Assembly (NCBI GenBank): GCA_031280915.1
Contig: JAITGC010000008.1
Span: 1 to 33,591 of the forward strand
Reading direction: 5' to 3'
DNA: 33,591 bases
Source: Desulfovibrio sp.
GTDB lineage: Bacteria > Desulfobacterota > Desulfovibrionia > Desulfovibrionales > Desulfovibrionaceae
Below, one piece after another: positions 3,406 to 22,978 of this stretch. Position numbers and translations under genes: made by a program. Position 1 is the stretch's first letter. Each line of letters begins with the position of its first letter. The notes under the pieces are model-generated. The model was given only the letters and a program-made list of their open reading frames with translations. It did no database searches and was not told the origin of the DNA.

Positions 3406-3460
3406 AGCAAAGTTCGGGCGAATCCCGCCGCCCGCGTGGAAATAACAAAGGAGGACGCGC

Positions 3461-3916: not shown

Positions 3917-3928
3917 GAGGGCAAGAAC

Positions 3929-5434: not shown

Positions 5435-5452
5435 CCACATGAGGTTAAGAGT

Positions 5453-7767: not shown

Positions 7768-8982
7768 ATGAAGGACGACACGTCAAAAAATAAAAAACAC
7801 ATTATTGTTTTCGCGCTTATCACCGCCCTTTGCCTGATGGGCGATTCCATGCTGTACATTGCCCTGCCGGTGCACTACCAGGATCTGGGCTTCAACTCTC
7901 TCTGGGAGGTGGGCATTGTCCTGGCAGTAAACCGCATAGTGCGCCTGCCCTTGAACCCCTTGGTCGGCCGACTCTATTCCCGCATCAGCGAGCGCACCGG
8001 CATTGGCATCGCCGTAGCCCTGGGCATATTGACCACCCTTTCCTACGGCTTTCTGCAGGGTCTTTTCTGGTGGGTGCTGGCCCGCTGCCTCTGGGGATTC
8101 GCTTGGTCCCTGTTGCGGCTGGGCTCCCTTTTCTGCATCTTGAAACTGTCTTCGCCGGAAACGCGCGGCGCTTACAACGGCCTGTACAACGGCCTGTACC
8201 GCTTGGGCAGCCTGGCGGGCATGTTTGGCGGCGGCCTGCTGGCGGACACGCTGGGCTTCAGCATCTGCGCCGCCATTTTCGCCTTGGGAACGGCCTGTGC
8301 CCTGCCAATCCTGACTCTCATGCCGCAGTCCGACGACGGGCAGCAGGCACGACCCGAACAACCCAGCCTTCTGGACGGCCTTCACCTCGCGGCGCGGAGC
8401 CGGGAAACCATGCTGACCGTTTTGTGCGGCGGCACGATCGCCCTTGTTTTGCAAGGCGTTCTGGCCTCCACCCTGAGCCACCTTGTTTCAACCCATACCA
8501 ACGGAGGTCTGCAGTGGGGCGAACTGGCCCTCGGTGCGGGCACGCTGGCCGGATTTTTCCAGGCCCTGCGCTGGTGCTGGGAACCCTGGCTGGCCCCTCT
8601 GACAGGCGGACTGGCTGACAGCCGCTACGGCTGGCGGCGAATGCTCCGCTTTTCCTTCGGCCTGGGGGGCGTGGCCTTTGCCTTGCTAGCCCTGTCTCTG
8701 CCGCTGCCGCTCTGGTTCGGCGTCCTTCTTTGCGCCCAGGCCGCCGCGACGGCGCTCACCACTCTGGTGGACGCCGGTGCAGCGGATGTGGCTACAGAGG
8801 AAGGCGGACGCTCACTGCTCATGACCTACGCGCTTCTGGTGGACATGGGCGCGGCTTTCGGCCCGCTGCTCGCCTACGGCCTTGAAGCCGCTCTGGGCAT
8901 CAACTTTGTATACACGTTCTGCGGCGTGTGTTTCATCATCATGGCCGTCATGCGAAAACCCCTTGCCGCGCGGGGAAAATAG
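7768..8982 (+). CDS. Major facilitator superfamily transporter
   Basis: 404 residues from the ATG at 7768, which has AAAAGG 9 bases upstream; the longer TTG start at 7702 would add an unconvincing hydrophilic tail. About 12 hydrophobic segments in two halves. Degenerate MFS motif A occurs after TM2 (NPLVGRLYSRISERTG) and again in the second half (GGLADSRYGWRRM). A hydrophilic loop QSDDGQQARPEQP near residue 190 separates the halves. It is an inner-membrane permease, probably a drug- or metabolite-efflux type. It is a single gene with no operon partner and the substrate cannot be predicted. Confidence 0.85.
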   Translation: MKDDTSKNKKHIIVFALITALCLMGDSMLYIALPVHYQDLGFNSLWEVGIVLAVNRIVRLPLNPLVGRLYSRISERTGIGIAVALGILTTLSYGFLQGLFWWVLARCLWGFAWSLLRLGSLFCILKLSSPETRGAYNGLYNGLYRLGSLAGMFGGGLLADTLGFSICAAIFALGTACALPILTLMPQSDDGQQARPEQPSLLDGLHLAARSRETMLTVLCGGTIALVLQGVLASTLSHLVSTHTNGGLQWGELALGAGTLAGFFQALRWCWEPWLAPLTGGLADSRYGWRRMLRFSFGLGGVAFALLALSLPLPLWFGVLLCAQAAATALTTLVDAGAADVATEEGGRSLLMTYALLVDMGAAFGPLLAYGLEAALGINFVYTFCGVCFIIMAVMRKPLAARGK

Positions 8983-9073: not shown

Positions 9074-9310
9074 ATGAAGACCATTACCACCATCGGCATT
9101 GATTTGGCAAAGAACAGTTTTTCCGTTTACGGAGCGGACACCAAAGGCAAGTCCGTGTTGCGACGTACTCTTTCACGCTCCGGCGTTACCCGGTTTTTCG
9201 CCAACCTCCCGGCATGCCTGTGGATATGGAAGCCTGTGCGTCGTCGAAATACTGGGCCAGGACGGCCCAGACCGTCGAAAGCCTGGGGCATAATGTACAA
9301 TCTCAAAGTT
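9074..9310 (+). pseudogene. IS110-family transposase remnant (frameshifted and truncated)
   Basis: The frame starting at 9074 reads MKTITTIGIDLAKNSFSVYG, the DEDD/RuvC-like N-terminus of IS110-family transposases with the first catalytic Asp in IGIDLAKN. At about 9220 the expected continuation (MEACASSKYWARTAQTVESLGHNV) is found in another frame, consistent with loss of one base. After GHNV the similarity ends near 9300, so some 300 residues of a normal protein are missing. It cannot encode a working transposase. It lies only about 25 bp beyond the end of the convergent HD-domain gene, so the insertion or its later deletion sets the edge of that gene cluster. Confidence 0.8.
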
Positions 9311-9334
9311 TAAATGTTCTACTACGATGGAAGA

Positions 9335-9940
9335 TCATGAACGCCCATGCTCTTCTCGCCTGCTCCACCAGTCCTTGTCCACGTGGGCGTACCACCAGCG
9401 GTTCGGATCCGAGCGCAGTATTTTTTCGGCCAATTCCCGCGCTACAGGGGAGCGCAGGCGTTTGAGCGCGTTTTCTATCCACTCGGAGGCAAATGTGTTG
9501 CCCTTGGAGAGTTCTACAGCCAAGTCACAGATCAAATCAAGCTGATCCGCGTCGCGGGCCAACTCCGCCTCCAGACTTTCGGGTACCTCAAATTCGTCGA
9601 AGAGCTTCAGCAACTCACCGGAGAGGCCGGTGCCTTCCAGCGCGTCTTCCAGAGCCTTGCGCGCACGGCATTCATTATAGAGGCGGTTGACGTAATTGAA
9701 GTCTCCCGTGCGGGCTTCGTGCAAGTCGTGAAAAAGGCACATCAGCACCACGCGGGCGGCATCCGCTCCGCTCAGGCGGGCCAGCGCGTAACCAGCCACG
9801 GCGACGCGGTAGCTGTGCTCGGCTACATTCTCCCCGCCTGTACCAAGAAAAGCATAGCCGCTACGCGGGATACGGCGCAACATGCCCGCCTCGTGCAAAA
9901 GATCGGCCAGGCGCTCAAGCTGGTTTTGCGCTGTTTTCAT
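9335..9940 (-). CDS. HD-domain phosphohydrolase (YfbR/HD_3-like)
   Basis: 201 residues. The HD metal site is complete: H42 in ENVAEHSYRVA, H71-D72 in CLFHDLHEA and D130 (or D132) in ARDADQLDL. Length and motif spacing fit the YfbR-like 5'-deoxynucleotidase group, which dephosphorylate nucleoside monophosphates in the cytoplasm. A strong GGAGGAAA precedes the ATG. It lies 19 bp downstream of the deacetylase-like gene on the same strand and is the last gene of the long operon, next to the IS110 remnant. Whether it belongs to the envelope pathway or merely rides along is unknown. Confidence 0.8.
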   Translation of the reverse strand: MKTAQNQLERLADLLHEAGMLRRIPRSGYAFLGTGGENVAEHSYRVAVAGYALARLSGADAARVVLMCLFHDLHEARTGDFNYVNRLYNECRARKALEDALEGTGLSGELLKLFDEFEVPESLEAELARDADQLDLICDLAVELSKGNTFASEWIENALKRLRSPVARELAEKILRSDPNRWWYAHVDKDWWSRREEHGRS

Positions 9941-9959
9941 ATATTTTCCTCCAGGGTTT

Positions 9960-10961
9960 TTACCAGTCGCCCTTGCCGGGTGGACGGGCGGAGAAATCGA
10001 GAGAAGCGGCCGCGCTGCGTAATTGGGCCGCAGTGACGGCGCAAATGGCGAAATTTTCTTTCAGCCATCGCAGGAAAGAATAAATTTTTTTGAAGAGCGC
10101 CGCGGCGGCGGTTTTGTCTGGTACGTTCGGCGATGCGCCTGGCAGCATTTCGGAAGAATGCCAAAACAGGTGCAGTACCCTGCCGCCTCGGGAAAGGTGC
10201 AGCCGCGTCGCCAGGCGCATGGCTTGTGGGCCATGCCAGACAGGGTTGGGGCTGACGGCCCCCCAATAGTGAAAGGAATCCAGGGAACCGGGCCAGCGGA
10301 CGCATTTGTGCCAGAAACGTGCAAGGCCTGGCACAAGCGGGATTTGCGTGATGGGCGACTCCAGAAGTTTATGGGCAGCATCAGTCCAGTAAGGGTCGGT
10401 GGGCGCAAGGAAATGATCCGCTCCATCCCCGAAGGCGCGTAGCGGGCAGACAGAACTGTCCAGCGTGATGCCCGCCTCTTCCAGCATGGGACGCAGGGCC
10501 GCCTTCATATCCCAGCGCCCCATGCGGAAGCTGGTCAGAGGCGCGCCCTGAAACTGTTTTCCCACCGCCAGCAAATTGTCCAGAGATTGGCGCAGAAGAT
10601 CGCGGCGCATGCGGTGTGTACGTTCCGGCGGTATTTTTTCCGCGCTGGCGGCGCCCAAGGGAGGCGTACTCCAGTGATGCAGATGCGCTGCGATTTCCGC
10701 TCCGCATTTGTCCCGCATGAAGGCCAGTGTGCGTCTGGCGTTGGCGTTATTGAAAACCGTATAGGCGCAAAAAAGAGTAAGGGGAAAGCCCAATTCCCGC
10801 GTGAGCGGAGTGAGACGGGGCAGCAGCGACACATTGCGCACACCGCATCCGGCTGTGGGGTAGCGCCCGGAAAAAAGCCCCTCTTCCTCCACGTCAAGGC
10901 TTACCACCACATACAGAGGTTTGCCGGAAGATGTCGGAAGCGTTTCTTCAAATCGCTGCAC
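9960..10961 (-). CDS. Polysaccharide deacetylase-like protein (NodB/WalW-type fold)
   Basis: About 333 residues from a GTG at 10961, preceded by GGAAGGAAAG; an ATG at 11021 (353 residues) is also open but has no ribosome-binding site. The metal-site motifs of carbohydrate esterase family 4 relatives are recognisable: SLDVEEEG near the start, AHLHHW about 100 residues on, FRMGRWDM in the middle, and LFWHSSEMLPG near the end. No signal peptide is seen, so action is probably cytoplasmic. Family members remove N-acetyl groups from sugars, and a role in trimming the glycan made by the adjacent GT4 enzyme is inferred. It overlaps the glycosyltransferase gene by 14 bp with this start, implying coupling. 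Confidence 0.7.
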   Translation of the reverse strand: MQRFEETLPTSSGKPLYVVVSLDVEEEGLFSGRYPTAGCGVRNVSLLPRLTPLTRELGFPLTLFCAYTVFNNANARRTLAFMRDKCGAEIAAHLHHWSTPPLGAASAEKIPPERTHRMRRDLLRQSLDNLLAVGKQFQGAPLTSFRMGRWDMKAALRPMLEEAGITLDSSVCPLRAFGDGADHFLAPTDPYWTDAAHKLLESPITQIPLVPGLARFWHKCVRWPGSLDSFHYWGAVSPNPVWHGPQAMRLATRLHLSRGGRVLHLFWHSSEMLPGASPNVPDKTAAAALFKKIYSFLRWLKENFAICAVTAAQLRSAAASLDFSARPPGKGDW

Positions 10962-12057
10962 GGCCTTTCCTTCCAACGCGTTTTTCACAATCTTCCCACA
11001 GGCGGACGAAAAGGTCTTCATGCGCGGCGACCATGCGGCTGAAGGAAAAATCCTGCTCTACACGTTCTCTGCCCGCCCTGCCCATAACGTCGCAGAGGCG
11101 TGGATCGGCGAGCAGGAGTGCGCAGTTGTCGGCGAGAGCCGTCGCGTTTCCGGCGGGGGAGAGCAGGCCGTTATTTCCCACAAGGGCGGGGATGCCCCCC
11201 ACGGTGGAGGCGCAGACAGGCAAACCGCAAGCCATGGCTTCCAACAGCACGTTGGGCTGCCCTTCCCGTATGGAGGCAAGGGCGAAAAGCCGGGCTTCGG
11301 CGTAATGGCGGCCTACATCGTCCGTGCCGGGAAAAAAGTCAATGTTGCGTCCTGCGGCATGATTTGCGGCCCAAGCGCGCAAAACGGAATATTCCGGCCC
11401 GTCGCCCACAATGCGCAGACGTGCGTGCGGTATCTGGAGCACAAGGTGCTCAAAGGCGCGGAAAAGAGTCAAATGATCTTTGTCTCGGGCAAGGCGCGCC
11501 ACGCACAAAATCACCGGCGCGCGTGCGGAGGGTGGAATCGCCGCCGGCGCGAAGCGAACAGGGTCAACCCCGTTTGGAATACAGGCCAGATGGGCGGCGG
11601 GCACGCCAAGAGCCTGGAGGGCGGCGCACAGCGCGTTTGAATTGCAAATTATTTTTTCGGTCAGCCGCCAGAGCAATCGTTCGTGCTGGCGGCGCGGCGC
11701 GCCGCCTCCCCTGCATGTGCCCACGATAACAGGCATTCCCGTCGCCCGCCCCCATATCCGTCCCCAGATGTTGGGCAGAGCCGTACAGGGAATGAGGATG
11801 TCCTGTCCGGCTGCCTTCAACGCGCGGTAAAGACGCAGAAAAAACGAGCCCGGCACGGTGCGGCCAGTACCCAGGCGACTGATTCCTATGCCGGCGGCCT
11901 CCGCGACTTCGTCCAAATCAGTCCTGCCAGTAAGCGTCAGTATGGATGGGAGAAAATGCGTTCTGTCAAGACGCAGCACCAGTTCCAGCATCTGGCGCTG
12001 CGTGCCCCCGAAACAGAGGTCTTCCATGAGAAACAGGATGCGCAGGGGGCGTGTCAT
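10948..12057 (-). CDS. Glycosyltransferase family 4 (GT-B fold)
   Basis: 369 residues. The N-terminal acceptor domain starts RILFLMEDLCFGGTQRQMLEL, with the glycine-rich turn of GT4 enzymes. The C-terminal donor domain has the NGVDPVRF motif and the nucleotide-sugar site REGQPNVLLEAMACGLPV followed by GGIPALV, including the conserved E-x7-E pair. It transfers a sugar from a nucleotide donor, probably to a lipid or a growing glycan on the cytoplasmic face of the inner membrane. It is 24 bp downstream of the flippase gene and overlaps the deacetylase-like gene, so it belongs to the envelope cluster. Confidence 0.9.
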   Translation of the reverse strand: MTRPLRILFLMEDLCFGGTQRQMLELVLRLDRTHFLPSILTLTGRTDLDEVAEAAGIGISRLGTGRTVPGSFFLRLYRALKAAGQDILIPCTALPNIWGRIWGRATGMPVIVGTCRGGGAPRRQHERLLWRLTEKIICNSNALCAALQALGVPAAHLACIPNGVDPVRFAPAAIPPSARAPVILCVARLARDKDHLTLFRAFEHLVLQIPHARLRIVGDGPEYSVLRAWAANHAAGRNIDFFPGTDDVGRHYAEARLFALASIREGQPNVLLEAMACGLPVCASTVGGIPALVGNNGLLSPAGNATALADNCALLLADPRLCDVMGRAGRERVEQDFSFSRMVAAHEDLFVRLWEDCEKRVGRKGRAAI

Positions 12058-12081
12058 CTTTTGTTGAAATTTTCGCTGAGA

Positions 12082-13500
12082 TTATCGGTTATCCCGTGCG
12101 GCATCAGGCTCAAAGGGGGCCGGAGGCCGCCAGGCCAGCAGCAGGGCCAGCAGAGGGATTAATCCGGCCGCTTCCGCCGCTTCGCGGGGCAGGATGAAAC
12201 CCGTGCCCCACCACAGGGCGAAGGAGATGAAGGACGTTGCCAAAAGCAGAGCCCACTGGCCGGCGGTCATCGGTTTGACAGCCCACTGGAAAAAAGAAAC
12301 CGTCAGAAGGGCCACCCATATTTTTGTCACTGTCAGGGCGAGGGCGGCGCCTTCCAGCGGCACCGACGGGATGAGCATGTAACAGCAGACAATATTGAGA
12401 GCAAGGCCACTCAAATAAAACAGCAACAACAGGTTGTGCCGTTGCATACCTATCATGGCGTACGCCGCGAGATTGTGCAGAAAGGCCGTGGCAAGGCAAG
12501 GGGTAAGCAGGCGCTGGGCTGTCGCCGCGCCGAGATATTCGTGGCCGTATACAAGGGGCAGAAGACGATCGCTCTCGACGCAGATGACAAAAATTATCGG
12601 TAGTGCGGCTGCCCAAAGCGAACGGGCCGTCTGCCCTGAAAGGTGGCGAAAGGCGTTGCGGTCTTCTTTCCACAAACGCGCCAGAAGCGGGAAAATAACC
12701 TTGCCCAGTAGCGCTCCCGAAAGCACCACCGTCAGCCCCTCCACCATTTCCCAAGCCACGCCGTAGCTGCCAACGGCCTCGTTTCCCCCGTGCTGTTTGA
12801 GGAAAAATACGTTAATTTTATTGTAAAACATGGCGCACAGGCCCATGCCCGTAAAAACAAGGCCGTGTTTCATCCGGCGGGCCAATTCCACTGCTGTGGA
12901 AACATCAATCCCCGCCAAGGGGTTACGGCCCAGAGCAAAACAGGCAAGAGCCATGCAGATGAGAGACTCCAGCATTTTGTACATGGCGATGACAATAAGC
13001 GGCGCGTCAAGCAGAATGCAGAGTATGCCGCAACCTATGCCGATGAGCGCGGCGGGGACGCGCAGGCGCATTTCCATATCCTGCCGGCCTCGCGCCTGGC
13101 AAAGGGCGAAAAACGAGTCGCTCACTGCGTCAAGTCCGAAACCTGCGGCGACGCAGAGTACAGTGAGACGCAGAACGGGCGCGTATTCCAATGCTCCGGT
13201 CACAATCCAGGCAATGCAGAGAGCCACGGCGAACAGCGCGAGTTTGATCAGGGTGACGCCGCTCAACAGGACGCGGGGGCGAACTTCCTGGCGGGCGAAG
13301 GTGGAAAGGAGAAAGTCGTTGAGGCCGACATCCGCCACGGTTTTAACAAGATAGCCGTAAGACAGGGCCAGCATGATCTGCCCAAGCATGTCCTTGCTGT
13401 GGCGGGCAAGTAGAATGGTAAAGGCTGCCCAAGCCAGATCGCGCGCCCATTGTGCGCCCAAGATATACCCGAGGCGCCTGGGGATGCTTTTCAACTTCAT
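12082..13500 (-). CDS. Oligosaccharide flippase, MOP/Wzx-type
   Basis: 472 residues, with about 12-14 hydrophobic segments along the whole length, and the pattern of polysaccharide-exporter-type MOP proteins (YILGAQWARDLAWAAFTILLAR at the start, a conserved mid-region YNKINVFFLKQ around residue 225, PLVYGHEYLGAA later). These proteins flip lipid-linked glycans across the inner membrane. Its start codon overlaps the stop of the HlyD-like gene as ATGA, so the two are tightly coupled. In the absence of an ABC or RND pump it is the only inner-membrane transporter of the cluster. Confidence 0.82.
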   Translation of the reverse strand: MKLKSIPRRLGYILGAQWARDLAWAAFTILLARHSKDMLGQIMLALSYGYLVKTVADVGLNDFLLSTFARQEVRPRVLLSGVTLIKLALFAVALCIAWIVTGALEYAPVLRLTVLCVAAGFGLDAVSDSFFALCQARGRQDMEMRLRVPAALIGIGCGILCILLDAPLIVIAMYKMLESLICMALACFALGRNPLAGIDVSTAVELARRMKHGLVFTGMGLCAMFYNKINVFFLKQHGGNEAVGSYGVAWEMVEGLTVVLSGALLGKVIFPLLARLWKEDRNAFRHLSGQTARSLWAAALPIIFVICVESDRLLPLVYGHEYLGAATAQRLLTPCLATAFLHNLAAYAMIGMQRHNLLLLFYLSGLALNIVCCYMLIPSVPLEGAALALTVTKIWVALLTVSFFQWAVKPMTAGQWALLLATSFISFALWWGTGFILPREAAEAAGLIPLLALLLAWRPPAPFEPDAARDNR

Positions 13501-14426
13501 TTCGGCGTGCTGCCCGTTCTCCCGCGGAAGTGGATCACTGTTTTGAAACCGGGCTTGAGTTCCAGATCGGGATTCGGCACTTGCAATTCCACCATGTAAT
13601 ACGAGGGTGTCGCAACATTCATGTCTGTGGACACCCAGGAAATTTCGGTGACCGTTGCCGTAAACTCTTTGTTGTTCAGGGAGGGAACCTCCACAATAGC
13701 GGCATCTCCCAGTCTGATGCCGGTGATTTCCGCTTCATAGACATGCACCTGGATAAGCGCGGGATCAAGCTGGCCCACCTGAATGGGCGTCGTCCCGGCG
13801 TTCAGCAGAGCGCCAGGATTCACTGCCCCGCTCAGGGAAAGCACATGTCCCTCAATGGGAGAAGTGAGGGTGAGCGTCGCGGGCAGTTGTTCTCCTGCCT
13901 TGATGGGTGTGCCGAAATAGCCTTCCAGTTCTTTCAGGCGGTCGGCGAAAACGCTTTCCTTTTTATGTATTGTCGCTTTGAGCAGTTCCACGCGCTGTTT
14001 GAGGGAGCGCACATCGTCTTCCAGGCGGCCCAGCGCCTGCTGTGAACCCAGACCGGCCGCCGCCAGTTGCTGCGCCTTGTTGCGCTGCGCAACGGTTTCC
14101 GCCAACTGGCGCTCCATATTCAGCATCTGGCTCCGCGGTTCTTCCGTATCAGCGCCGACGGTCACTTCACGCTGCAGGATGCGCCCAGCTTCTTCCTGCA
14201 GGTGGTAACGCATGAGAGGCGCGTCTTTGAGTACGGCGTCGCCAGGCTTTGCCAGAATTTCATCCACAATGCTGTTGAAGGGCATGGGTACGGCGCGGGT
14301 GACTGTGGTGACGAATTTACCGGTGAGGATGGTGGAAGGGTTCTCCGCCGCCAGGCTTGCTTCAGGCGCGGTAAAAGACAGGCACAAAATCGTCAGCGAC
14401 AGGAGCAAGGGGACGGCTTGCGGCAT
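13497..14426 (-). CDS. HlyD/EmrA-like periplasmic adaptor (membrane-fusion protein)
   Basis: 309 residues. A signal peptide or signal anchor (residues 1-27, PLLLSLTILCLSFTAPEASLA) is followed by the first half of a biotinyl-lipoyl-like domain (PFNSIVDEILAKPGDAVLKDAPL). A coiled-coil hairpin (about 95-165, rich in Gln, Glu and Leu) follows, then the second lipoyl half (LTSPIEGHVLSLSGAVNPGALL) and a beta-barrel C-terminus (VHVYEAEITGIRLGDAAIVEV). Adaptors of this kind bridge an inner-membrane pump to a TolC-type channel. Its stop overlaps the flippase start (ATGA) and its start overlaps the TolC-like stop by one base. The pump partner is not obvious. Confidence 0.87.
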   Translation of the reverse strand: MPQAVPLLLSLTILCLSFTAPEASLAAENPSTILTGKFVTTVTRAVPMPFNSIVDEILAKPGDAVLKDAPLMRYHLQEEAGRILQREVTVGADTEEPRSQMLNMERQLAETVAQRNKAQQLAAAGLGSQQALGRLEDDVRSLKQRVELLKATIHKKESVFADRLKELEGYFGTPIKAGEQLPATLTLTSPIEGHVLSLSGAVNPGALLNAGTTPIQVGQLDPALIQVHVYEAEITGIRLGDAAIVEVPSLNNKEFTATVTEISWVSTDMNVATPSYYMVELQVPNPDLELKPGFKTVIHFRGRTGSTPK

Positions 14427-15919
14427 TACAGCAGCTCCTTGGCGGGCGGTCCGAGAAAACGCTCTTGCAGAAGACCGGCAAGATACATCCAGTTCAGCTT
14501 GGCGAGCCGTAACTCAAGCTCCGCTTCGATCGCGGCGATGCGCGCCCTGACCATGGTCTCCCGGCAATCAGCCACGGCGGGGAGTTGTTCCGTACCGGTA
14601 CCGAAGGCTATCCGCGCTTCCTTATAGTGCATTTCCGCTGTTTCATAGCGTGTCTGCGCCAGTTTGAACTGGGTGGCGGCCAAGGTGACTTTTTGTTCGG
14701 CCTGAAGCCACTCGTTGGAATAATCGGTACGTTTGCGCGACATTTCATGGAAAGCCTGGGCCTTGCTCATTCTGGCCGTTTGCACACCCCTGTAGCGACG
14801 GCCCCAGTCAATCAACGGGAAACTGAAGTTGAAATGCAGGAAATAATCCTCTGTTCCGTTGGGCGGCTGGGCCTGCCCGGAGGGTGGATTTCTGTCGTAA
14901 CTCAGAGACATGTCCGGCACATACTGCGCCCAGGCTAACATAATGTTGAAATCCGCCAGTTTTACCTGCCCCTGTAACAGATATTCATCTTCAAGCACGG
15001 GCCAGCGTTCATCCCAGGCAAGTTTACCGCCGTCAAAACCGGCCAGGATTTCCTCGGCGTTTCCGGTGCCTGTCTGCAGGCGCTGGGCCGGTTCCACGCC
15101 GGCCAGGATTTTGAGTTGGGTGCGCTGCATTGTTTCCTGCATGCCTGTCTGCTCCACCATCAACTCCAGTTCGCGTTCGTGTTGTCTGGCCCGATTGAGT
15201 GAGATGCCCTGACGCCCTTCAACGGCCTCCACCTGCTGCCAGTAAGCTGTGAGATCTTTGCCCAAGGGCAGAAGTTCCTTTTGGGCAGCGGCTATTTTTT
15301 CCTTGGCCTGGAGTTGCAGATAGGCCTGGGCTATTTTGTGGATAGCCTCGCCCACAGCCTTGCGGTGCATGGCGATGGCGATATTGACCATGATTTTTCT
15401 GGCCTGATGCTGAAAATAGGTGGCCACGGGATTGGGAAAGGATGCCTGGAAGCCGATATCCAGCTTAGGGCGCCCGTAATCGGCTGGCGTATCCCGGATG
15501 TCATTATTATACTGCGTCAGGTTGTTGGAAATATGGAGGCTCATGCGCGGTTCCGGCAAATACTGCCATATGGCGCTGGTCAACTCCACGCGCTTGATTT
15601 CCAGGTTCACGGCGCTGTTGACCAGTAAAGGGGATTGTTGAATGGCCAGATAGACACAGTCCTCAAAGGAGAAAATTTTGTTGGGGTCATAAAGATTGGG
15701 GACGGCCGCTTCCAGTTTATCCCTGTTTTCCACAGGAATGCCCGGAGCTTCTTCCAGCCAGTGCCTGGCCGGAAGTTCCGGCGATTTTAGACCCGCTTTG
15801 TTTGAGGCACAGGCGGAGAGAAAAAGCAGCAAGCACAGGCAGAACATTGTCCCCAGACGCTTTGGGCCCGGCAAAGAGATCACGTTCGCTGACAGCATCC
15901 GAATCGTCGATATTCTCAT
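14426..15919 (-). CDS. TolC-like outer-membrane efflux lipoprotein
   Basis: 497 residues, within the normal range for TolC/NodT-type channels. An N-terminal segment ends in the lipobox LLLFLSAC, with Cys37 as the predicted lipidation site. Two repeats of the outer-membrane efflux domain follow, with long helical regions (for example residues about 160-240 and 370-470). The ATG at 15919 has AGGA 8 bases upstream, although a 20-residue stretch precedes the signal sequence, so later ATGs cannot be excluded. It is 6 bp downstream of the AT-ACP-DH gene and overlaps the HlyD-like gene, forming a tight export cassette. Confidence 0.87.
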   Translation of the reverse strand: MRISTIRMLSANVISLPGPKRLGTMFCLCLLLFLSACASNKAGLKSPELPARHWLEEAPGIPVENRDKLEAAVPNLYDPNKIFSFEDCVYLAIQQSPLLVNSAVNLEIKRVELTSAIWQYLPEPRMSLHISNNLTQYNNDIRDTPADYGRPKLDIGFQASFPNPVATYFQHQARKIMVNIAIAMHRKAVGEAIHKIAQAYLQLQAKEKIAAAQKELLPLGKDLTAYWQQVEAVEGRQGISLNRARQHERELELMVEQTGMQETMQRTQLKILAGVEPAQRLQTGTGNAEEILAGFDGGKLAWDERWPVLEDEYLLQGQVKLADFNIMLAWAQYVPDMSLSYDRNPPSGQAQPPNGTEDYFLHFNFSFPLIDWGRRYRGVQTARMSKAQAFHEMSRKRTDYSNEWLQAEQKVTLAATQFKLAQTRYETAEMHYKEARIAFGTGTEQLPAVADCRETMVRARIAAIEAELELRLAKLNWMYLAGLLQERFLGPPAKELL

Positions 15920-15925
15920 AATGCT

Positions 15926-18568
15926 TTATTCCTGATAAAAAAATTCCAAATGGTGCAGGGTGGCGGTCATCCGTCCCTGTGAATCAATCGCTTGGGCGTC
16001 AAAACGTATTATTGTTCCGTCATCCCAGGATTTGCGCAATTCTATGCCGTGTCCCCATAAATCGGGCGTCAGCGTGTTGAAAATGACAAAACCGGCGGCA
16101 TGGAGCCGCCAAGACCGCAGGGCCGCAAGAATTTCTCCGGGTGCATCCGTTACGGCTGCTTTTTTTGCCACGGCGGCAAAGGCGGCCTGCGCAATGCCCT
16201 CGACAACATACAGAATTTCTGTATAGCGGGATTTTTTCTTTTGGGCAATGCCTCTGTCCGGGGAGGCGTCAACGTCCCAGGAAGGCTTTTGTGAGTCTTG
16301 GGGTTGACTGTTCCGGCGTATTTCGGCCCGGTATATCCCGCCGGGCAATTCCGCATACTCCGCGAGAAGCCGCCAGGGGGCACCGAAACCGGCGGCATCG
16401 TAAAAATTTCGGATAAAAGCGTCTTCCCCAGGTTCGCCAATCTTATGGAGATCAGCCGCCGGCCAAAGAGCTTTGGCTACATAGGGCGTGGCGGTCATGT
16501 GTACCGTAGCGCTCATGACTTTGGCATGGGAGCCGGTGGGACGCCCATTGCCGGCGACATCCCGCACAGTCAGTTTTGCGCGGCACATCTGGGTCATAAG
16601 GCTGTCGTGGGTGAATTTCGCCTGGGCTTTCACCGTGAGGGGACATTCCCTGGTGACGCCCGGCGGCAGCAGGGGGGTATCGAAAAAACGGACGTCGGAG
16701 AGGCCGTGTGCCGCAAGGTCCGGAAAAAGCAGACAGGCGCCTTCAACAAGGGCCTGCATGGCGCGGCTGAGAGGCAGACAGGGCGTATTCGCCTTCCGGC
16801 GGTCAATGTGCGCGGCCAGATCGGGGTCGGCGAAGCGGGAAAAGTGGCAGGCTCCTTCCAGGGCGGAGGCCGAAGGTTCAGGGACGTTCGGGAGAAAAAC
16901 AAGAGTGGAGATGTCCGGCCTTTCCACAAAACGTCGGGAACGAGAAATCCAGGCTGTCTCCTGTTTCTGCGCCTGTTTCTGTTCATCCTGTTCCGCATTT
17001 TGCCCTGTATCCTGTGCCGCATCTTGCTCTGTATTCCGGTTGGCGGCGCAGATCACCCGCGCCAAGTCACCCGCGCAGGTCACACCCAGCAGGTTTTCAA
17101 AAAGCAGACTCACTCCCATGTCCCGCTCAATTTCCTGAATCAGAAGAGGAAAACGGCTGGAACGCAGGGAAAGGTCATAACGCAGATCGCTTTCCGGCTT
17201 GATGTTTTCCTTGGGGCAATCAGCCGCTTTTGCCAGTATTGCCGCCAGAGTCTCCATGCACGCGGCAAAACGGGGATCCGCCGCCGGAGCTTGTCGCGAT
17301 GTGGCCTCCGCTATCTTCGTATTCTCCAGCTCTTCCTGGAAGGCGGAAGATGCTCTGCCCTGCCGTGCGGCGATCACGGCCGCGCGGGACAGACAGCCCA
17401 AGGCGTAAAGGCGGGCGCAGGCTAGGCGCATCTGTTCGGTTTCGTGCCCCTTGCGACCTGCGGGCAGACAATCGGCCAGGGGATTGTTGTCCGTTGTCAG
17501 GCCGCACAGGGTGTCCTGCGGGCCAAGTTCGAGAAAATGGCTTATACCTTGGACATCATGCATGGCGTGTACGCAGTCTGTCCAGCGGACTGGGTTTTCA
17601 TCCAATTCCGCAATATGGCGGCAGATGGAGGGCTGATCGTCGGGGTAAAAATCCGCTGTGACGCAACTGAGCACTTTGAGAAGCGGAGCGTTCATGGGCA
17701 GAGCATTGAGGCGTCGCAGGGAAAGATCCCGCAGAATGCGCATACCTGGATGATGGTAGGCCAAGTTCACATTGAGCAGCAGCGCGGGAATACGTTGCTT
17801 GCGCAAGCTTTTGCGGGCTTCCGCCAAAGCCTCGCGCGGTCCGCTCATAATGAACTGCCGTGGCGTGTTGTAATTGGAAACGAGCAGATTCGGCCAAGTT
17901 TCACGCACACGGGCGATGATGTCGGCGGCGGCGTGTACGGCCATCATGCCGTTTTCGCGCGTGGATATTACCTCCATTTCGGCCATGTGCATGGCGCGGG
18001 TATCCAAAATGTACCAGGCTACTTCCGGCGTATAGATGCCGGAAAAGCACAGGGCGATGGCTTCTCCCAGGCTGTGGCCGCAAAGCAGGGCCGGCTTGAG
18101 TCCCAGTGAGGCGAATTGGCTCCATTGAGCGTATTCCAGCAAAAAAAGATAGGGCTGTTGCCAGCGGGTGTGGCTGATTTTTTCGGCGTCCGGCTCATCC
18201 AAGAGAGCCAGCACGTCCCAGTCCGCAGCGGCGGCGATGCGTTCCATCCCCGCCCTGGCGGCGGGGAAATTGTCGTACAGTTCTCGTCCCATGTGAGGCC
18301 ATGCGCTGCCGAGGCCGCCGCAGATCACGGCAAGGGGGGGTGTTTCCCCCCGGCCGAGCCACAGGCCCTGTGCCCCAAGGGCGCGAATGTCCTCTTCCTT
18401 CGGGCGGGAGGACAGCGAGGGCAAATATTCCCGCCAGCGTGTGTTCACGCTGCCCATCCGCCATATCTGTCCGGCCTGAGGCAGATCCGCATAGCGTACG
18501 CCGTCAAGGACGACTTCAGGAGATGATTCCTCCGCCACGCTCCGGGGATTTTCGTCAACGTCCGACAT
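15926..18568 (-). CDS. PKS/PUFA-synthase-like multidomain protein (acyltransferase - carrier protein - dehydratase-like)
   Basis: 880 residues. Residues about 78-370 form a malonyl/acyl-transferase domain: nucleophile Ser166 in CGHSLGEA and His272/273 in AYHHPGM. Residues about 430-510 resemble an acyl-carrier domain, with DLSLRSS at 465-471 aligning with the usual D-L-G-L-D-S-L. The phosphopantetheine serine would be Ser470, but the Asp before it is Arg. A Gln/Glu/Asp-rich linker (511-540, imperfect TEQDAAQ repeats) follows. Residues about 560-880 look like a double hot-dog dehydratase domain, with His587 and the TPCLP segment matching the DH active-site region. No ketosynthase or reductase domain is present. 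The gene overlaps rimM by 14 bp and heads the export/glycan cluster. It probably builds or loads an acyl chain; the product is unknown. Confidence 0.75.
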   Translation of the reverse strand: MSDVDENPRSVAEESSPEVVLDGVRYADLPQAGQIWRMGSVNTRWREYLPSLSSRPKEEDIRALGAQGLWLGRGETPPLAVICGGLGSAWPHMGRELYDNFPAARAGMERIAAAADWDVLALLDEPDAEKISHTRWQQPYLFLLEYAQWSQFASLGLKPALLCGHSLGEAIALCFSGIYTPEVAWYILDTRAMHMAEMEVISTRENGMMAVHAAADIIARVRETWPNLLVSNYNTPRQFIMSGPREALAEARKSLRKQRIPALLLNVNLAYHHPGMRILRDLSLRRLNALPMNAPLLKVLSCVTADFYPDDQPSICRHIAELDENPVRWTDCVHAMHDVQGISHFLELGPQDTLCGLTTDNNPLADCLPAGRKGHETEQMRLACARLYALGCLSRAAVIAARQGRASSAFQEELENTKIAEATSRQAPAADPRFAACMETLAAILAKAADCPKENIKPESDLRYDLSLRSSRFPLLIQEIERDMGVSLLFENLLGVTCAGDLARVICAANRNTEQDAAQDTGQNAEQDEQKQAQKQETAWISRSRRFVERPDISTLVFLPNVPEPSASALEGACHFSRFADPDLAAHIDRRKANTPCLPLSRAMQALVEGACLLFPDLAAHGLSDVRFFDTPLLPPGVTRECPLTVKAQAKFTHDSLMTQMCRAKLTVRDVAGNGRPTGSHAKVMSATVHMTATPYVAKALWPAADLHKIGEPGEDAFIRNFYDAAGFGAPWRLLAEYAELPGGIYRAEIRRNSQPQDSQKPSWDVDASPDRGIAQKKKSRYTEILYVVEGIAQAAFAAVAKKAAVTDAPGEILAALRSWRLHAAGFVIFNTLTPDLWGHGIELRKSWDDGTIIRFDAQAIDSQGRMTATLHHLEFFYQE

Positions 18569-19082
18569 ATACTTCCGTCAGACCTTGGGGAGGGTTAATA
18601 TACACAGTGCGCCGCCCGGTATCGAAACCCTGAATGAAACAGGGTTGCGCCGGAAACAGTATTTCTTTGCCCTCGTCCGTCAGAATAACCCAGATGTCTT
18701 GCCCCGCCGGGGATTCCAAGCGTTCAAAGCGTCCAAGGCGCCGCCCGTCGGGCAGGCGGACGTCCGCATTGAGCAGATCCTGCACATAGGCTTCATCCTC
18801 CGCGAGGGGGGGGAGAAAGGCGCGGTCTATCAGCAGTTTTTGTCCGCGCAGAGCCTCGGCGGCGGAACGGTCCGTTATGCCTTCAAAACTCGTCAGCAGA
18901 CAGCCTTGATGCTCACGGCAGGAAAGGAGTCTGGCGGGCCTGGGAGGCTCTTGTCCGCAGGCGAGCCATAGGGGGGCATCCGGCGGCAATGGAGAATCCG
19001 CATGCCAGGCGACGCGTACTTCTCCTTTTATGCCGTGGGGCCGCAGCAGTGTGCCCATGTGAATCAGTACGCCGCGCGGCAC
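18555..19082 (-). CDS. rimM: Ribosome maturation factor RimM
   Basis: 175 residues from a GTG start at 19082 that has AGGAG 6 bases upstream. The N-terminal RimM domain begins GTLLRPHGIKGEVRV, and the C-terminal PRC-barrel includes DVRLPDGRRLGRFERLE and ILFPAQPCFIQGFD. RimM assists 30S head assembly around S19. It follows khpA by 3 bp. In most bacteria trmD and rplS come next, but here the stop overlaps the start of a polyketide-type gene. Confidence 0.95.
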   Translation of the reverse strand: MPRGVLIHMGTLLRPHGIKGEVRVAWHADSPLPPDAPLWLACGQEPPRPARLLSCREHQGCLLTSFEGITDRSAAEALRGQKLLIDRAFLPPLAEDEAYVQDLLNADVRLPDGRRLGRFERLESPAGQDIWVILTDEGKEILFPAQPCFIQGFDTGRRTVYINPPQGLTEVYVGR

Positions 19083-19085
19083 GCG

Positions 19086-19316
19086 TTACTCCTGAATTTC
19101 CAGCAGCACACGTTTTTTGAGCCTGGTCGAGGCGGCGCTCAATACAGAGCGGACGGCGCGGATGGTGCGCCCCTGCTTGCCAATCACCTTGCCCACATCT
19201 TCTTTGTCTACAGTCAGCTCAATGACCAAGGCCTGGTCCCTCTCCGTTTCGGTGACGCATACCGCATCGGGGTTGTCCACCAGCGCTTTGATGATATACG
19301 CGGTCAGCTCTTTCAT
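19086..19316 (-). CDS. khpA: KH-domain RNA-binding protein KhpA (YlqC family)
   Basis: 76 residues with one KH domain. The GxxG loop is visible in [19 protein letters not shown], and the length is normal. KhpA binds RNA, often as a partner of KhpB/Jag. It sits in its usual place between rpsP and rimM. Its start overlaps the rpsP stop as ATGA. Confidence 0.95.
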
Positions 19317-19561
19317 TTTTGGGGGGGCATGTGTTTTTTGAGCAGGGAACGCACAGTGTCGGTGGGTTCCGCGCCCCGGGCGAGCCAGGCATTGATTTTA
19401 TCCGCGTCGAGTTTGACTTCGGCCGGGTCTGTCATGGGGTTGTAGTAACCGAGGAATTCCAGCGGGCGTCCATCGCGCCGGGTTTCGTCATTGGCGGCAA
19501 CTACCCTGTAAAAAGGATGTTTCTTGCTGCCGAGGCGGGCCAGTTTCAATTTCACAGCCAT
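19313..19561 (-). CDS. rpsP: 30S ribosomal protein S16
   Basis: 82 residues. The start [21 protein letters not shown] is characteristic of S16, followed by [15 protein letters not shown]. Full length. It is 27 bp downstream of ffh and overlaps khpA by 4 bp. Confidence 0.98.
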
Positions 19562-19588: not shown

Positions 19589-21067
19589 TTATTTTTTCTT
19601 TTTCTTCCGGCGCTCTTTCTTTTTTCTCTTCGTCGCGCCGCTTCTTCCGGCAGAGGGCAGGGTTTCCATTCCCGGCATACCCGCAAAGGCGGGCATACCC
19701 GTCCCAAAGCCTCCCATACTGGGAAAACCTCTAGATTTTTGTGGCGCGGACATGCCTCCACCGCCCATCATGGATTTCATCATCCGTCGTATTTGTTCAA
19801 ATTGACGTACCATCTGGTTGACCTGGGCCACGGTAACGCCAGCCCCCCTGGCTATGCGGGCCCGTCGGCCGCCATTGAGGATATCCGGATCGCGGCGTTC
19901 AGCCATGGTCATGGAGTTAATGATGGCTTCCGTGCGGGCAAGCTCTTTTTCCGGCACGGCGGCGTTGGCTTCAGTCAGCTTTTCCCGCAGGTTTCCCAAG
20001 CCGGGGATGAGCTTCAGCAAGCCGTCCAGAGACCCCATTTTTTTCAGGCGGCGCATCTGGGCGCGGAAATCCTCCAAATCAAAGGACGCCTTCTGCATCT
20101 TGCGGGCAAGGGATTCGGCTTCCTCGGCATTGATGGTCGCTTCGGCTTTTTCCACCAGGGTCAGCACATCGCCCATGCCCAGGATGCGTCCGGCAATGCG
20201 ATCCGGATGAAAAACCTCCATTTCCGAGAGTTTTTCGCCCACACCCACAAATTTTACCGGCGCCTCCGTCACCGCGCGGATGGAAAGGGCCGCTCCACCG
20301 CGCGCGTCTCCATCCATCTTTGTCAGTACAACGCCTGTGAGACCAAGGCGCGCGTTGAATGCCCCGGCCACGGTGACGGCATCCTGTCCGGTCATGGCGT
20401 CGGCCACAAAAAGTATTTCCTGAGGAGCCACAGCCGCCTTGATGGCTTCAAGCTCCTCCATAAGAACTTCATCCACATGCAGACGGCCCGCTGTATCGAG
20501 AAGAAGAGCCGTGGCCGGTATGTCGCTGTCTCGTGCCGCTTGCACAGCGGCCCGGGCGATTTCCACCGGGGTCATATCTGCGGTGGAAGGGAAACACGGC
20601 ATGTCCAATTGTCTGGCCAGCGTTTTTAATTGCTCAATGGCCGCCGGGCGGTACACATCAGCCGGGACAAGACAGGGGCGCATTTTCTGCTTGCGCAGCA
20701 GAGTGGCTATTTTCGCGGCTGAGGTGGTCTTGCCGGAACCTTGCAGGCCAACCAGCATAATAACGGCAGGCGAGGGGCCACGCAGATCCAGGCCCGTTGT
20801 TTCGCCGCCAAGCAGCGCGACGAGTTCATCGCGAACTATCTTTACCACCTGCTGGGCGGGGTTAACGCCCCTGATGATGTTCTGCCCCAGGCATTTCTCT
20901 CGAACGCGTTCCGTAAAATCCTTGACGACTTTAAAGTTGACGTCCGCTTCCAGCAGGGCGAGGCGTACTTCGCGCAGACCGCCCTGGATGTTTTCTTCCG
21001 TCAGGCGACTGCGGCCGCTCAGGGAACGGAATACGCCGGAAAGTCTGTCGGACAGGCTTTCAAACAT
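19589..21067 (-). CDS. ffh: Signal recognition particle protein Ffh
   Basis: 492 residues. The N domain (1-85) is followed by the GTPase domain with the P-loop GLQGSGKTTSAAK, DTAGRLHVD and TKMDGDARGG. The methionine-rich M domain (about 300-430) ends in MMKSMMGGGGM. The C-terminal tail is unusually basic, with a run of Lys and Arg to the end. It binds 4.5S RNA and signal sequences at the ribosome and delivers them to FtsY. A GGAG lies close upstream of the ATG. Gene order ffh-rpsP-khpA-rimM is typical of deltaproteobacteria. Confidence 0.98.
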   Translation of the reverse strand: MFESLSDRLSGVFRSLSGRSRLTEENIQGGLREVRLALLEADVNFKVVKDFTERVREKCLGQNIIRGVNPAQQVVKIVRDELVALLGGETTGLDLRGPSPAVIMLVGLQGSGKTTSAAKIATLLRKQKMRPCLVPADVYRPAAIEQLKTLARQLDMPCFPSTADMTPVEIARAAVQAARDSDIPATALLLDTAGRLHVDEVLMEELEAIKAAVAPQEILFVADAMTGQDAVTVAGAFNARLGLTGVVLTKMDGDARGGAALSIRAVTEAPVKFVGVGEKLSEMEVFHPDRIAGRILGMGDVLTLVEKAEATINAEEAESLARKMQKASFDLEDFRAQMRRLKKMGSLDGLLKLIPGLGNLREKLTEANAAVPEKELARTEAIINSMTMAERRDPDILNGGRRARIARGAGVTVAQVNQMVRQFEQIRRMMKSMMGGGGMSAPQKSRGFPSMGGFGTGMPAFAGMPGMETLPSAGRSGATKRKKKERRKKKKK

Positions 21068-21087: not shown

Positions 21088-21756
21088 TCAGGAGAGACTT
21101 TTTTCATTGCGCGTCCAGTAGAGCAGGCGGGTCTGACGACGCACGGCCTCAATAAGGGCCGCCTCGTCGTCGCGGCTGTCCAGATCGCGGATACGCAGGA
21201 AAACCTGCCGGATGTCCTCATCCGCGTTGGCCGAAAGAACGGAGAGGATACGCGCTCCGAAAGAACCCATCAGGTCAAAAACAGGTCTCAGGGCACCCTT
21301 GCGGTTTGGAATTTCCACCCCTATCTGTATGCCGCCGCTACGCACGCCGGTGATGCCTATCAATGCCTTGAGCACGTCATAGCCGGTGATAATGCCGACG
21401 AGAGCAGCATTTTCACCCACAACAGGCAAGCCGCCGATATTTTTGTCCATCATCACCATAGCGGCCTGTTCCACGGTTTCCGTAGCTGTGACCGTGATGG
21501 GAGCCGGGGTCATGACATCCTTGGCCCTGATTTCGGCCAACAGATAATGCAGTTCATACATATCCAGTGTGGTGGCCTTGGAGGGGGAGGCGTCCCGTAC
21601 ATCCCTGTCGGAAATAATGCCGATGACGGCGTTGTCTCCGTCAACAACGGGCAGACGGCGGATGCGGTTGTCCCGCATGAGTTTGCCTGTCTTCAGCAGC
21701 GTTGTATCAGGTTGGACGGAAATTACCTTAGAGGTCATCCAGTTTTGCACCAGCAT
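21088..21756 (-). CDS. CBS-domain pair plus ACT-like domain protein (AcuB-like)
   Basis: 222 residues. Two CBS motifs are clear: VQNWMTSKVISVQPDTTLLK with RRLPVVDGDNAVIGIISDRD, and RAKDVMTPAPITVTATETVE with GGLPVVGENAALVGIITGYD. Residues about 145-215 form an ACT-like domain (GVEIPNRKGALRPVFDLMGSF). Such proteins sense adenosine nucleotides or amino acids; members next to other genes are named AcuB by analogy only. It lies 20 bp before ffh in the same operon, with a possible internal promoter upstream (21798-21826). Confidence 0.88.
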   Translation of the reverse strand: MLVQNWMTSKVISVQPDTTLLKTGKLMRDNRIRRLPVVDGDNAVIGIISDRDVRDASPSKATTLDMYELHYLLAEIRAKDVMTPAPITVTATETVEQAAMVMMDKNIGGLPVVGENAALVGIITGYDVLKALIGITGVRSGGIQIGVEIPNRKGALRPVFDLMGSFGARILSVLSANADEDIRQVFLRIRDLDSRDDEAALIEAVRRQTRLLYWTRNEKSLS

Positions 21757-21868: not shown

Positions 21869-22978
21869 TCAGTCGATGCCCATCGCTTTTTTTATTTTTT
21901 TTGCGGCGCGTTTGACTTTTTCCAGGGGTTTTTCCTCCCCGGCCTTTTGGAATTCGCGCAAAAGTTCAATCTGTTTGTCGGAAAGGCGCGTGGGAGTCAA
22001 CACCTTGATTTCCGCGAGCAAGTCTCCACGTCTGCTTTGGCCGGGGTAGGGCAGGCCCTCTCCGGGGATTCGCAAGAGCGTGCCGCTTTGTATTCCCTTG
22101 GGTATTTCCAGCGGCAGTTCGCCGTCAAGACCCGACACTTCCGTCTTGTGGCCGAGCGCGGCTTGGGTGAAGCCAATCTCCAGCGTACAGAGCAGATTTT
22201 GTCCTTCGCGCTGAAAGCGTCTGTCAGGTTCCACCGTGAGTACGACATAGAGATCCCCAGGCGGGCCGCCGTGTATGCCCGGCTCTCCTTCGCCGCGCAC
22301 ACGCAGCCTCGTGCCCGTGTCTACGCCGGCGGGTACGCGCACGACAAGCTCACGTACTTCCGCCACAACTCCCTCACCCTTGCAGCGCGGACAAGGCCTG
22401 GTGATTATCCGGCCTTCGCCGCGACAGGCGTCGCAGGGCACGACAAGTTGGAAGAAACCTTGGGAACGGCGTATCTGACCAGCGCCGTTACACCGGCGGC
22501 AGGTTTCCACCTTGCTGTCTTTGTCCGCGCCACTGCCGCCGCAGTCTTTACAGGTGACGCGTTTGGGCAGGCTCAGGGTGATTTCGTCGCCTTTGGCGGC
22601 CTGTCTGAAACTGATGTCCAGATTGTAGCGCAAATCAGCGCCAGCCATGGCGCGAGGCCCGCGTGAGGCTGTGGAAAATCCGAAAAGGTCGCCGAAGATG
22701 TCGCTGAAATGGGTGAAAATGTCTTCCGCGCTGCCGAAACCGCCCGCGCCGCCGCCCTGCACTCCCGTATGACCGAAACGGTCGTAACGGGCGCGTTTTT
22801 CAGGATCTCGGAGTACGTCATAGGCTTCGGCGGCCTCCTTGAATTTTTGTTCGGCCTCGGCATTGCCCGGATTGCGGTCAGGATGATACTGCATGGCCAG
22901 TTTGCGGTAGGCCCGTTTGATATCATCCTCGCCCGCAGTACGCGGTACGGCAAGAATTTCGTAATAATCGCGCTGCAT
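21869..22978 (-). CDS. dnaJ: Chaperone DnaJ (Hsp40, type I)
   Basis: 369 residues. The J domain carries HPD in AMQYHPDRNPGN. A Gly/Phe-rich stretch (GGGAGGFGSAEDIF) follows. Four zinc-binding repeats are complete: CKDCGGSG, CRRCNGAG, CDACRGEG and CPRCKGEG. The C-terminal substrate-binding domains have GDLYVVLTVEP and GDLLAEIKV. It stimulates DnaK ATPase activity in the cytoplasm. It follows rpoZ by 22 bp. dnaK is not in the window. Confidence 0.98.
   Translation of the reverse strand: MQRDYYEILAVPRTAGEDDIKRAYRKLAMQYHPDRNPGNAEAEQKFKEAAEAYDVLRDPEKRARYDRFGHTGVQGGGAGGFGSAEDIFTHFSDIFGDLFGFSTASRGPRAMAGADLRYNLDISFRQAAKGDEITLSLPKRVTCKDCGGSGADKDSKVETCRRCNGAGQIRRSQGFFQLVVPCDACRGEGRIITRPCPRCKGEGVVAEVRELVVRVPAGVDTGTRLRVRGEGEPGIHGGPPGDLYVVLTVEPDRRFQREGQNLLCTLEIGFTQAALGHKTEVSGLDGELPLEIPKGIQSGTLLRIPGEGLPYPGQSRRGDLLAEIKVLTPTRLSDKQIELLREFQKAGEEKPLEKVKRAAKKIKKAMGID

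Follow-up and report, generated by a model that had tools for sequence, protein, structure and literature searches.

Gene organisation of the locus

The 33,591-nucleotide stretch of Desulfovibrio sp. DNA analysed here (the window; contig JAITGC010000008.1 of assembly GCA_031280915.1) is an entire contig (G000:C60) of the source assembly, G000, which comprises 2.34 Mb in 102 contigs and is an estimated 86.87% complete. On its minus strand the genes ffh, rpsP, khpA-like and rimM are followed directly by four genes, referred to here as the quartet, that encode a protein with acyltransferase (AT), acyl carrier protein (ACP) and dehydratase (DH)-like domains, a TolC-like outer-membrane factor (OEP), a HlyD-type periplasmic adaptor and a MOP-superfamily flippase. 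Genes for a GT4 glycosyltransferase, a deacetylase-like protein and an HD hydrolase complete the run (Table 1).

A preliminary description of the window had placed these genes behind rimM on a single strand, with a 14-bp overlap at the junction and overlaps or very short gaps along the run. Both observations were upheld, as Pfam profiles supported the HD, GT4, flippase, HlyD, TolC/OEP, AT, RimM, S16 and SRP54 assignments, and from the CBS-domain gene to the HD gene the measured gaps are 27 bp at most, with several overlaps. Counted in order from the dnaJ-like gene to the HD gene, the intergenic distances are 112, 20, 27, −4, 3, −14, 6, −1, −4, 24, −74 and 19 bp. The value of −74 probably reflects a deacetylase start downstream of the first ATG, since a 342-aa form of the protein exists in databases. 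The khpA-like gene lies between rpsP and rimM in relatives too, and the HD gene is also found 3' of the deacetylase gene in G001 and in the GenBank metagenome-assembled genome (MAG) JAISLI010000029 (Desulfovibrio sp.; L089; JAISLI below).

Table 1. Features of the minus-strand run in the window, in order of transcription.
Feature	Coordinates	Strand	Evidence
dnaJ-like gene, heads the same-strand run	21869..22978	-	PF00226/PF01556/PF00684
CBS-domain protein	21088..21756	-	PF00571
ffh	19589..21067	-	PF00448/PF02978/PF02881
rpsP (bS16)	19313..19561	-	PF00886
khpA-like KH protein, 76 aa, 4-bp overlap with rpsP	19086..19316	-	named from sequence and position
rimM, GTG start	18555..19082	-	PF01782, PF24986
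Promoter-like site in rimM 3' end, TCGATA-17-TATATT, 9/12	18597..18625	-	scan
AT-ACP-DH protein, 880 aa	15926..18568	-	PF00698, weak ACP models, DH profile
TolC/OEP-like outer-membrane factor, lipobox-like LSAC	14426..15919	-	PF02321 (93.8 bits)
HlyD/MFP periplasmic adaptor	13497..14426	-	PF16576, PF13437, both over cut-off
MOP-superfamily (Wzx-like) flippase	12082..13500	-	PF13440 64.3 bits (cut-off 23), PF01943 33.6 (cut-off 28.2)
GT4 glycosyltransferase (GT4-2)	10948..12057	-	PF13692, PF00534
CE4/NodB-fold deacetylase-like protein (deacetylase-2)	9960..11021	-	predicted fold
HD_3/YfbR-like hydrolase, final gene	9335..9940	-	PF13023, PF12917

The quartet and its partner operon across the genus

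Among 37 Desulfovibrio genomes, the source genome included, the AT, OEP, HlyD and flippase genes occur in this order and on one strand in 36. The departures noted were G004, a 63% complete genome without an AT match above the FabD-like level, G012, in which the quartet is cut by contig ends, and G024, where an extra open reading frame (ORF) on the opposite strand separates the HlyD and flippase genes. In 21 of the 37 genomes the quartet is divergent from a gene for an alpha-oxoamine synthase, the first of a partner operon that also contains GT4 and AsnB-like genes and, in most cases, a deacetylase gene, and the synthase itself was found at an identity of at least 71% in 35 genomes. A full quartet beside a divergent synthase-deacetylase-GT4 run is also present in G168, which belongs to another genus of the family (g33).

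The partner operon of the source genome is intact at C101:12455-19334 and consists of five genes encoding the alpha-oxoamine synthase, a GT4 enzyme, a deacetylase, a second GT4 enzyme and an AsnB-like protein. The closest solved relatives of this synthase belong to the serine palmitoyltransferase/BioF/Kbl family. The copy in G006 matched PF00155, the profile of fold-type I pyridoxal phosphate enzymes, at 171 bits, and scored up to 360 bits with AONS models, every match lying below the subfamily cut-off. The XrtA amidotransferase model gave the AsnB-like protein of G006 a score of 610 bits, against a cut-off of 817.

Variants of this arrangement were seen in several genomes. In nine genomes (G006:C1:964207-971339, and likewise in G002, G019, G021, G024, G030, G032, G035 and G054), a second synthase (50–56% identical) and a 2136–3162-aa AT-containing ORF are no more than about 8 kb apart. 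In G019 (L035) and G034 (L045), the AT gene is preceded not by the synthase operon but by genes for an ABC ATPase and a SufBD-core protein. A further AT copy, truncated at the contig end, is found on contig C2 of G007 (L067), with a divergent set of synthase, GT4 and deacetylase genes of its own.

The preliminary description had put the locus forward as an undescribed system. Literature searches, judged by title and the start of the abstract, found no description of the locus, which agrees with that proposal; the pathway is not, however, peculiar to this place, being genus-wide and usually having a divergent intergenic region of its own.

The rimM–AT junction and the separation of rimM from trmD

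The gene order singled out in the preliminary description is more than a chance arrangement, since it recurs in related genomes. The AT gene follows rimM in eight of the 37 genus genomes (G000, G001, G003, G009, G010, G027, G028 and G036), in JAISLI, and in G154, a single contig of 1.41 Mb that is 95% identical to G009 over 7.45 kb. These ten genomes are termed linked. The two genes overlap by 14 bp in G000, G001, G028 and JAISLI, and are separated by 15 bp in G003, 6 bp in G010, 5 bp in G036 (from the ATG), 94 bp in G009 and 585 bp in G027. In the linked clade the partner operon lies on another contig, and it is complete, with five genes, in G000, G001, G003, G009, G028 and G036. On a tree of Ffh, RpsP, KhpA and RimM with 20 rows, nine of them linked and one (G009) represented by 39% of the columns, the linked rows form one clade with 96/98 support and a single change of state; most other genus genomes are outside this tree. 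In G009, ffh is on a different contig and the rimM contig ends at rpsP, and in G154 no ffh match was found within the 8.4 kb read upstream of rpsP; both are 1.4-Mb genomes.

The cluster had been described as lying where trmD and rplS normally lie, with these two genes necessarily elsewhere. The latter was confirmed, as trmD is at G000:C96:24011-24670 and the ATG of rplS is 10 bp past the trmD stop. The TrmD frame of the source genome is open for 498 aa (L001 1291-2787), which is roughly double the model length, and carries additional sequence at its C-terminal end; TrmD frames of at least 390 aa occur in most relatives searched.

The former claim was not supported by a comparison by hand of rimM and trmD positions across the genus sample and 24 relatives from other genera of the same order. 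In all 24 outgroup genomes, trmD adjoins rimM on the same strand, at a distance of no more than 256 bp (trmD of G052 is cut by a contig end). They are adjacent in none of the 37 genus genomes, of which G005 has no rimM match, G022 has no trmD match and many have the two genes on separate contigs. Where both are on one contig, in 13 genus genomes (G002, G006, G007, G008, G012, G014, G017, G021, G024, G025, G029, G032 and G034), they are invariably convergent and 3.5–16.2 kb apart; in the linked genome G154 they are divergent, with trmD about 36 kb from rimM. In G002, G006, G021, G025 and G034 the order is ffh-rpsP-khpA-rimM-mutM, after which come, in reversed orientation, genes found behind trmD in G042 and G037, both outgroups (ffh of G025 is outside the stretch read, and mutM was identified by the profile match of the G006 copy). 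We infer that a genus-wide local inversion split rimM from trmD before the cluster arrived.

The gene after rimM was read in ten unlinked genus genomes, and is mutM in seven (G002, G006, G019, G021, G024, G025 and G034; not in G004, G014 or G026). Among eight linked genomes, mutM has a match elsewhere in five and none in three. Displacement of trmD-rplS by the cluster was rejected, since rimM and trmD are apart throughout the genus sample and mutM occupies the position behind rimM in most of the unlinked genomes read. The favoured reading of the junction is one event, specific to this lineage, that came after the proposed older inversion and in which the quartet appears to have moved rather than the operon half.

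The AT-ACP-DH protein

The first protein of the quartet consists of a linker and acyltransferase (residues ~13–411), an ACP (~430–515) and a predicted double-hotdog DH-like domain (~560–880). Its AlphaFold2 model (pLDDT 84.7) matched AT structures of polyketide synthases (PKS), with the structural alignment covering mainly residues 15–411. The acyltransferase motif GHSLGE at residue 164, of the GHSxG type, is invariant in 41 sequences except for its leucine. Equally invariant in 41 sequences is the ACP attachment residue Ser470, within an LRSS motif that starts at residue 468; ACP models matched the window protein weakly, and PF00550 scored over its cut-off in two homologues. The profile of the DH-like domain matched the CurJ DH at 4.9e-5.

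The spacer between the ACP and the DH-like domain measures 215–327 aa in most relatives measured (for example, the long form at L042 7564-8331) and mostly 37–51 aa in the clade of the window. An alignment of 16 long forms of the spacer gave weak PDB matches only (best 0.038), some of them to short-chain reductases, and because these matches are weak a degenerate ketoreductase in this position is only a guess. Relatives of the AT protein belong to Desulfovibrio or Deltaproteobacteria wherever the organism is named, among the 120 listed of 173 found. In the 24 order relatives from other genera, the same search returned FabD- or PKS-like matches at E 1e-25 or weaker, and none in one genome.

The glycosyltransferase and deacetylase genes

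The glycosyltransferase and deacetylase-like genes of the window differ from the partner-operon copies and form a second, genus-wide pair, GT4-2 and deacetylase-2. GT4-2 scored 143 bits with the stp2 model (cut-off 409). No Pfam or NCBIfam match was obtained for deacetylase-2, and its sequence profile found no convincing relative in the PDB, with one match at 0.078. Its predicted structure (pLDDT 84.5) was matched by Foldseek to 3rxz (9.8e-10; TM 0.52/0.63), which indicates a NodB-type (CE4-like) fold. The conserved motifs are SLDVEEEG, HLHHW, FRMGRWD and WHSSE, and Asp43, His113 and His115, candidates for the catalytic aspartate and the His-His metal site, are invariant in 19 sequences.

When deacetylase-2 loci were examined to 1.5 kb on either side, GT4-2 was found beside deacetylase-2 in 19 of 29, the window included. 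The two genes are in tandem 3' of the flippase in G000, G001, G003 and JAISLI, and are divergent in 16 loci outside G000, G001 and G003. A search of 199 genomes of the order with the flippase (E 1e-30) matched 62 genomes, 24 of them outside the genus, and 11 regions from ten of these 24 were read. Besides that of G168, the flippase relative adjoins a GT4 relative (41–50% identical), or is one gene from it, in six of the ten regions. In G211 (g40) the flippase relative has GT4-1, GT4-2 and deacetylase relatives as its neighbours, and in G152 (g29) it has an AsnB relative; no close GT4, deacetylase or AsnB neighbour was seen in G122, G144, G081 or the second region of G099. The AT quartet was present in none of the ten. 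As six of the ten regions place them together, flippase and glycan genes tend to co-occur in the family.

The putative export genes

The HlyD protein has one hydrophobic segment, at its N terminus (residues 1–23), and eight hydrophobic stretches were counted in the flippase by a simple scan. A loose lipobox pattern occurs in 20 of 34 OEP ORFs. The neighbours of the OEP-HlyD pair in genus loci are the AT and flippase genes, with the unnamed opposite-strand ORF of G024 preceding the flippase there. Neither between nor next to the OEP and HlyD genes of these loci was an ABC, RND or MFS gene recognised, an unlinked pump elsewhere in the genome not having been searched for, and coupling of the flippase to HlyD-TolC is for this reason advanced as a hypothesis. 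MOP flippases are kin of MATE pumps. A Chem Rev review (PMC8277102) gives ABC, RND and MFS pumps as the partners in tripartite assemblies and states that, when it was written, there were no reports of such assemblies with PACE, MATE or SMR systems.

What is most novel about the locus is that HlyD and TolC-like genes are consistently paired with a predicted MOP flippase, with no ABC, RND or MFS gene adjoining. A more far-reaching proposal would have the flippase serve as the inner-membrane partner of HlyD and a TolC channel in a new tripartite exporter, carrying a sphingoid-like glycolipid made by the ketosynthase-less AT-ACP-DH protein and the alpha-oxoamine synthase and wired in one lineage into a ribosome-biogenesis operon; taken as a whole, this is unlikely.

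Transcription of the run

The best-scoring promoter-like sites of the strand, two at 10/12 each, lie at 23361-23324, some 350 bp ahead of the dnaJ-like gene. The preliminary description had raised the question of a terminator or promoter inside rimM. The scan found no terminator-like site between rimM and the AT gene on the minus strand, whereas a promoter-like site was found at the 3' end of rimM; one terminator-like site lies inside the AT gene (16112-16092). Over the region, both strands scanned, 10 promoter-like sites were found against 5.8 expected, and 24 terminator-like sites against 19.7 expected. Together with the compact spacing of the run, read-through from ffh-rimM into the quartet is plausible.

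The 300 bp before the AT gene contain a promoter-like site in 10 of 28 unlinked loci, several being of the type TGGACA-17-TANCAT and lying ~105–214 bp ahead of the gene, as would be expected if the quartet had a separate promoter in genomes beyond the linked clade. In G015 (L054) and G005 (L056) these 300 bp are very AT-rich (GC 0.20 and 0.17, respectively) and contain a site scoring 11/12. The intergenic gap of G027 (L057) contains TTGACA-17-TATGCA, identified by eye and uncounted in the scan since its final base is not T.

Outside the run, a gamma-glutamyltranspeptidase gene (23515-25137) is divergent from the dnaJ-like gene. Immediately past the HD gene, a transposase-like fragment on the plus strand (9074-9330) presumably resembles IS110-type transposases, and positions 264-8982 carry genes for a LacI-type regulator, a UGSC-like protein (below cut-off), a TctABC tricarboxylate transporter and an MFS protein, which lie outside the present finding.

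Interpretation and alternative explanations

With the chances about even, these observations suggest that a four-gene unit of the genus sits behind rimM in one sub-lineage, where it is likely to be co-transcribed with ffh-rpsP-khpA-rimM, and that it is predicted to help make and export a glycosylated surface lipid. The best reading of the product is a glycolipid or lipid-modified glycan, half of whose pathway would have been captured by the ribosomal operon in that sub-lineage. The repeated co-location of the genes supports a single pathway. In the proposed scheme, the AT would load an extender unit onto the fused ACP, the chain would be extended by a ketosynthase acting in trans, and the DH-like domain would process or hold it. 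The alpha-oxoamine synthase may then release the chain by joining it to an amino acid; the resulting amino-ketone lipid, of a sphingoid-like kind, would be decorated by the GT4 enzymes, the CE4 protein and the AsnB-like enzyme. The flippase would turn the lipid over the inner membrane, and HlyD-TolC would deliver it to the surface. Given the position of the quartet behind rimM, export capacity would be tied to growth.

Desulfovibrio includes gut sulfate reducers, and from the locus a surface lipid or glycan is predicted that almost every genome of the genus sample would share. The locus would also allow the coupling of a flippase to an adaptor and a TolC-type channel to be put to the test. The rimM junction would be a natural experiment that attaches envelope export to ribosome production, in which relatives with and without the junction can be compared directly.

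Several observations weigh against this interpretation. The modules are not inseparable, because G010 keeps the quartet with a partner operon reduced to the synthase and AsnB-like genes and has no deacetylase match of either kind, which also counts against a single pathway, G006 is without deacetylase-1, and no synthase match was found in G027 (80% complete). In the DH-like domain a glutamate stands at the CurJ-type aspartate position and the histidine is kept in only some relatives, so the domain may be inactive. No ketosynthase profile matched the window AT protein or two long homologues, and a fused ketosynthase was rejected on these searches. HlyD and TolC could pair with a pump encoded elsewhere in the genome. 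As to coupling, the 585-bp gap of G027 weakens the claim, as do promoter-like sites within the final 200 bp of rimM, found in five of ten linked genomes (0.41 expected) compared with two of 27 unlinked (1.31 expected; six of these 27 belong to other genera). Of the five linked sites, four, those of G000, G001, G003 and JAISLI, are at approximately the same place, 68–71 bases before the rimM stop, where they overlap rimM codons.

The likeliest of the rival explanations is that the junction is a neutral rearrangement and the quartet runs from a promoter of its own, now in the 3' end of rimM, without coupling to growth. The enrichment and shared position of the rimM-end sites, the wide gap of G027, the sites found before the AT gene in unlinked loci and the frequency of rearrangements near the ffh-rimM operon in the genus all agree with it. 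On the other side, the shared sites score just 9/12, occur in four closely related genomes and overlap coding sequence. The other six linked genomes comprise five without a site and G036, whose site is nearer the stop; G028 has the 14-bp overlap and no site, and the junctions of G009, G010 and G154 are close and likewise without one. The lack of a terminator-like site between rimM and the AT gene on the minus strand also favours read-through. On balance the neutral explanation is given a substantial but lesser likelihood. The growth-linked transcription claimed in the preliminary description is only plausible, being favoured by the overlaps and short gaps and qualified by the rimM sites of the source genome and its three relatives and by the spacing in G027.

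Somewhat unlikely is a Wzx-type locus of the ordinary sort, akin to XrtA clusters and making an exopolysaccharide or O-glycan; in such a locus the AT-ACP-DH protein would do no more than acylate the glycan, and TolC/HlyD would replace the usual polysaccharide export proteins. The scores of the AsnB-like protein, the likeness of GT4-2 to stp2, the deacetylase fold and the Wzx-like flippase would suit such a locus, as would the family relatives that hold the flippase with GT4 or AsnB genes and no AT. The alpha-oxoamine synthase and fused ACP point instead to a lipid product, and the annotated genes at the locus include no recognised polymerase or Wza/Wzc. Exosortase searches were negative in all 37 genus genomes compared with matches in 13 of 24 order relatives, and membership of the XrtA/PEP-CTERM class was rejected on this ground.

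A secondary-metabolite locus, whose product would be a small molecule of amino-ketone or polyketide-like type exported by a dedicated pump, is improbable. The PKS-type AT, ACP and DH-like domains, the synthase, the adaptor and the outer-membrane factor are parts it would require, but the quartet is near-universal in the genus, as most secondary-metabolite loci are not, and GT4, deacetylase and flippase genes are present while no ketosynthase was found. The joining of two unrelated contigs at rimM during metagenome assembly, conceivable given the fragmentation of the source assembly, was rejected as having practically no likelihood, as the same junction occurs in seven other sampled genomes, in JAISLI and in the single-contig G154.

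Comparison with known systems

Relative to the canonical rpsP-rimM-trmD-rplS operon, the order ffh-rpsP-khpA-rimM is kept and trmD and rplS are still together, but trmD is never beside rimM in the Desulfovibrio sample and the envelope quartet follows rimM in this clade. The AT protein resembles type I PKS modules in its linker-AT, ACP and predicted double-hotdog DH-like domains, and differs from them in the absence of a recognised ketosynthase, in the LRSS attachment motif and in the variable ACP-DH spacer. The partner gene of the source genome, outside the window, has serine palmitoyltransferase, BioF and Kbl among its closest solved relatives, whereas the G006 copy matched AONS models without reaching their cut-offs. 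With XrtA/PEP-CTERM polysaccharide loci the system shares GT4 and AsnB-like amidotransferase relatives and a deacetylase fold; unlike them, it has no exosortase in the genus sample and adds the AT-ACP-DH protein and alpha-oxoamine synthase.

As in tripartite efflux and type 1 secretion systems, genes for an outer-membrane factor and an adaptor are adjacent, but the ABC, RND or MFS pump of those systems is not encoded beside the adaptor. Heterocyst glycolipid export by DevBCA-HgdD likewise uses a HlyD-type adaptor and a TolC-type channel for a glycolipid, as described in PMC8277102, and the window HlyD protein matched the DevB model weakly (3.2e-5). The DevCA ABC transporter of that system has no counterpart beside the adaptor in the present locus, where a MOP flippase is co-encoded instead.

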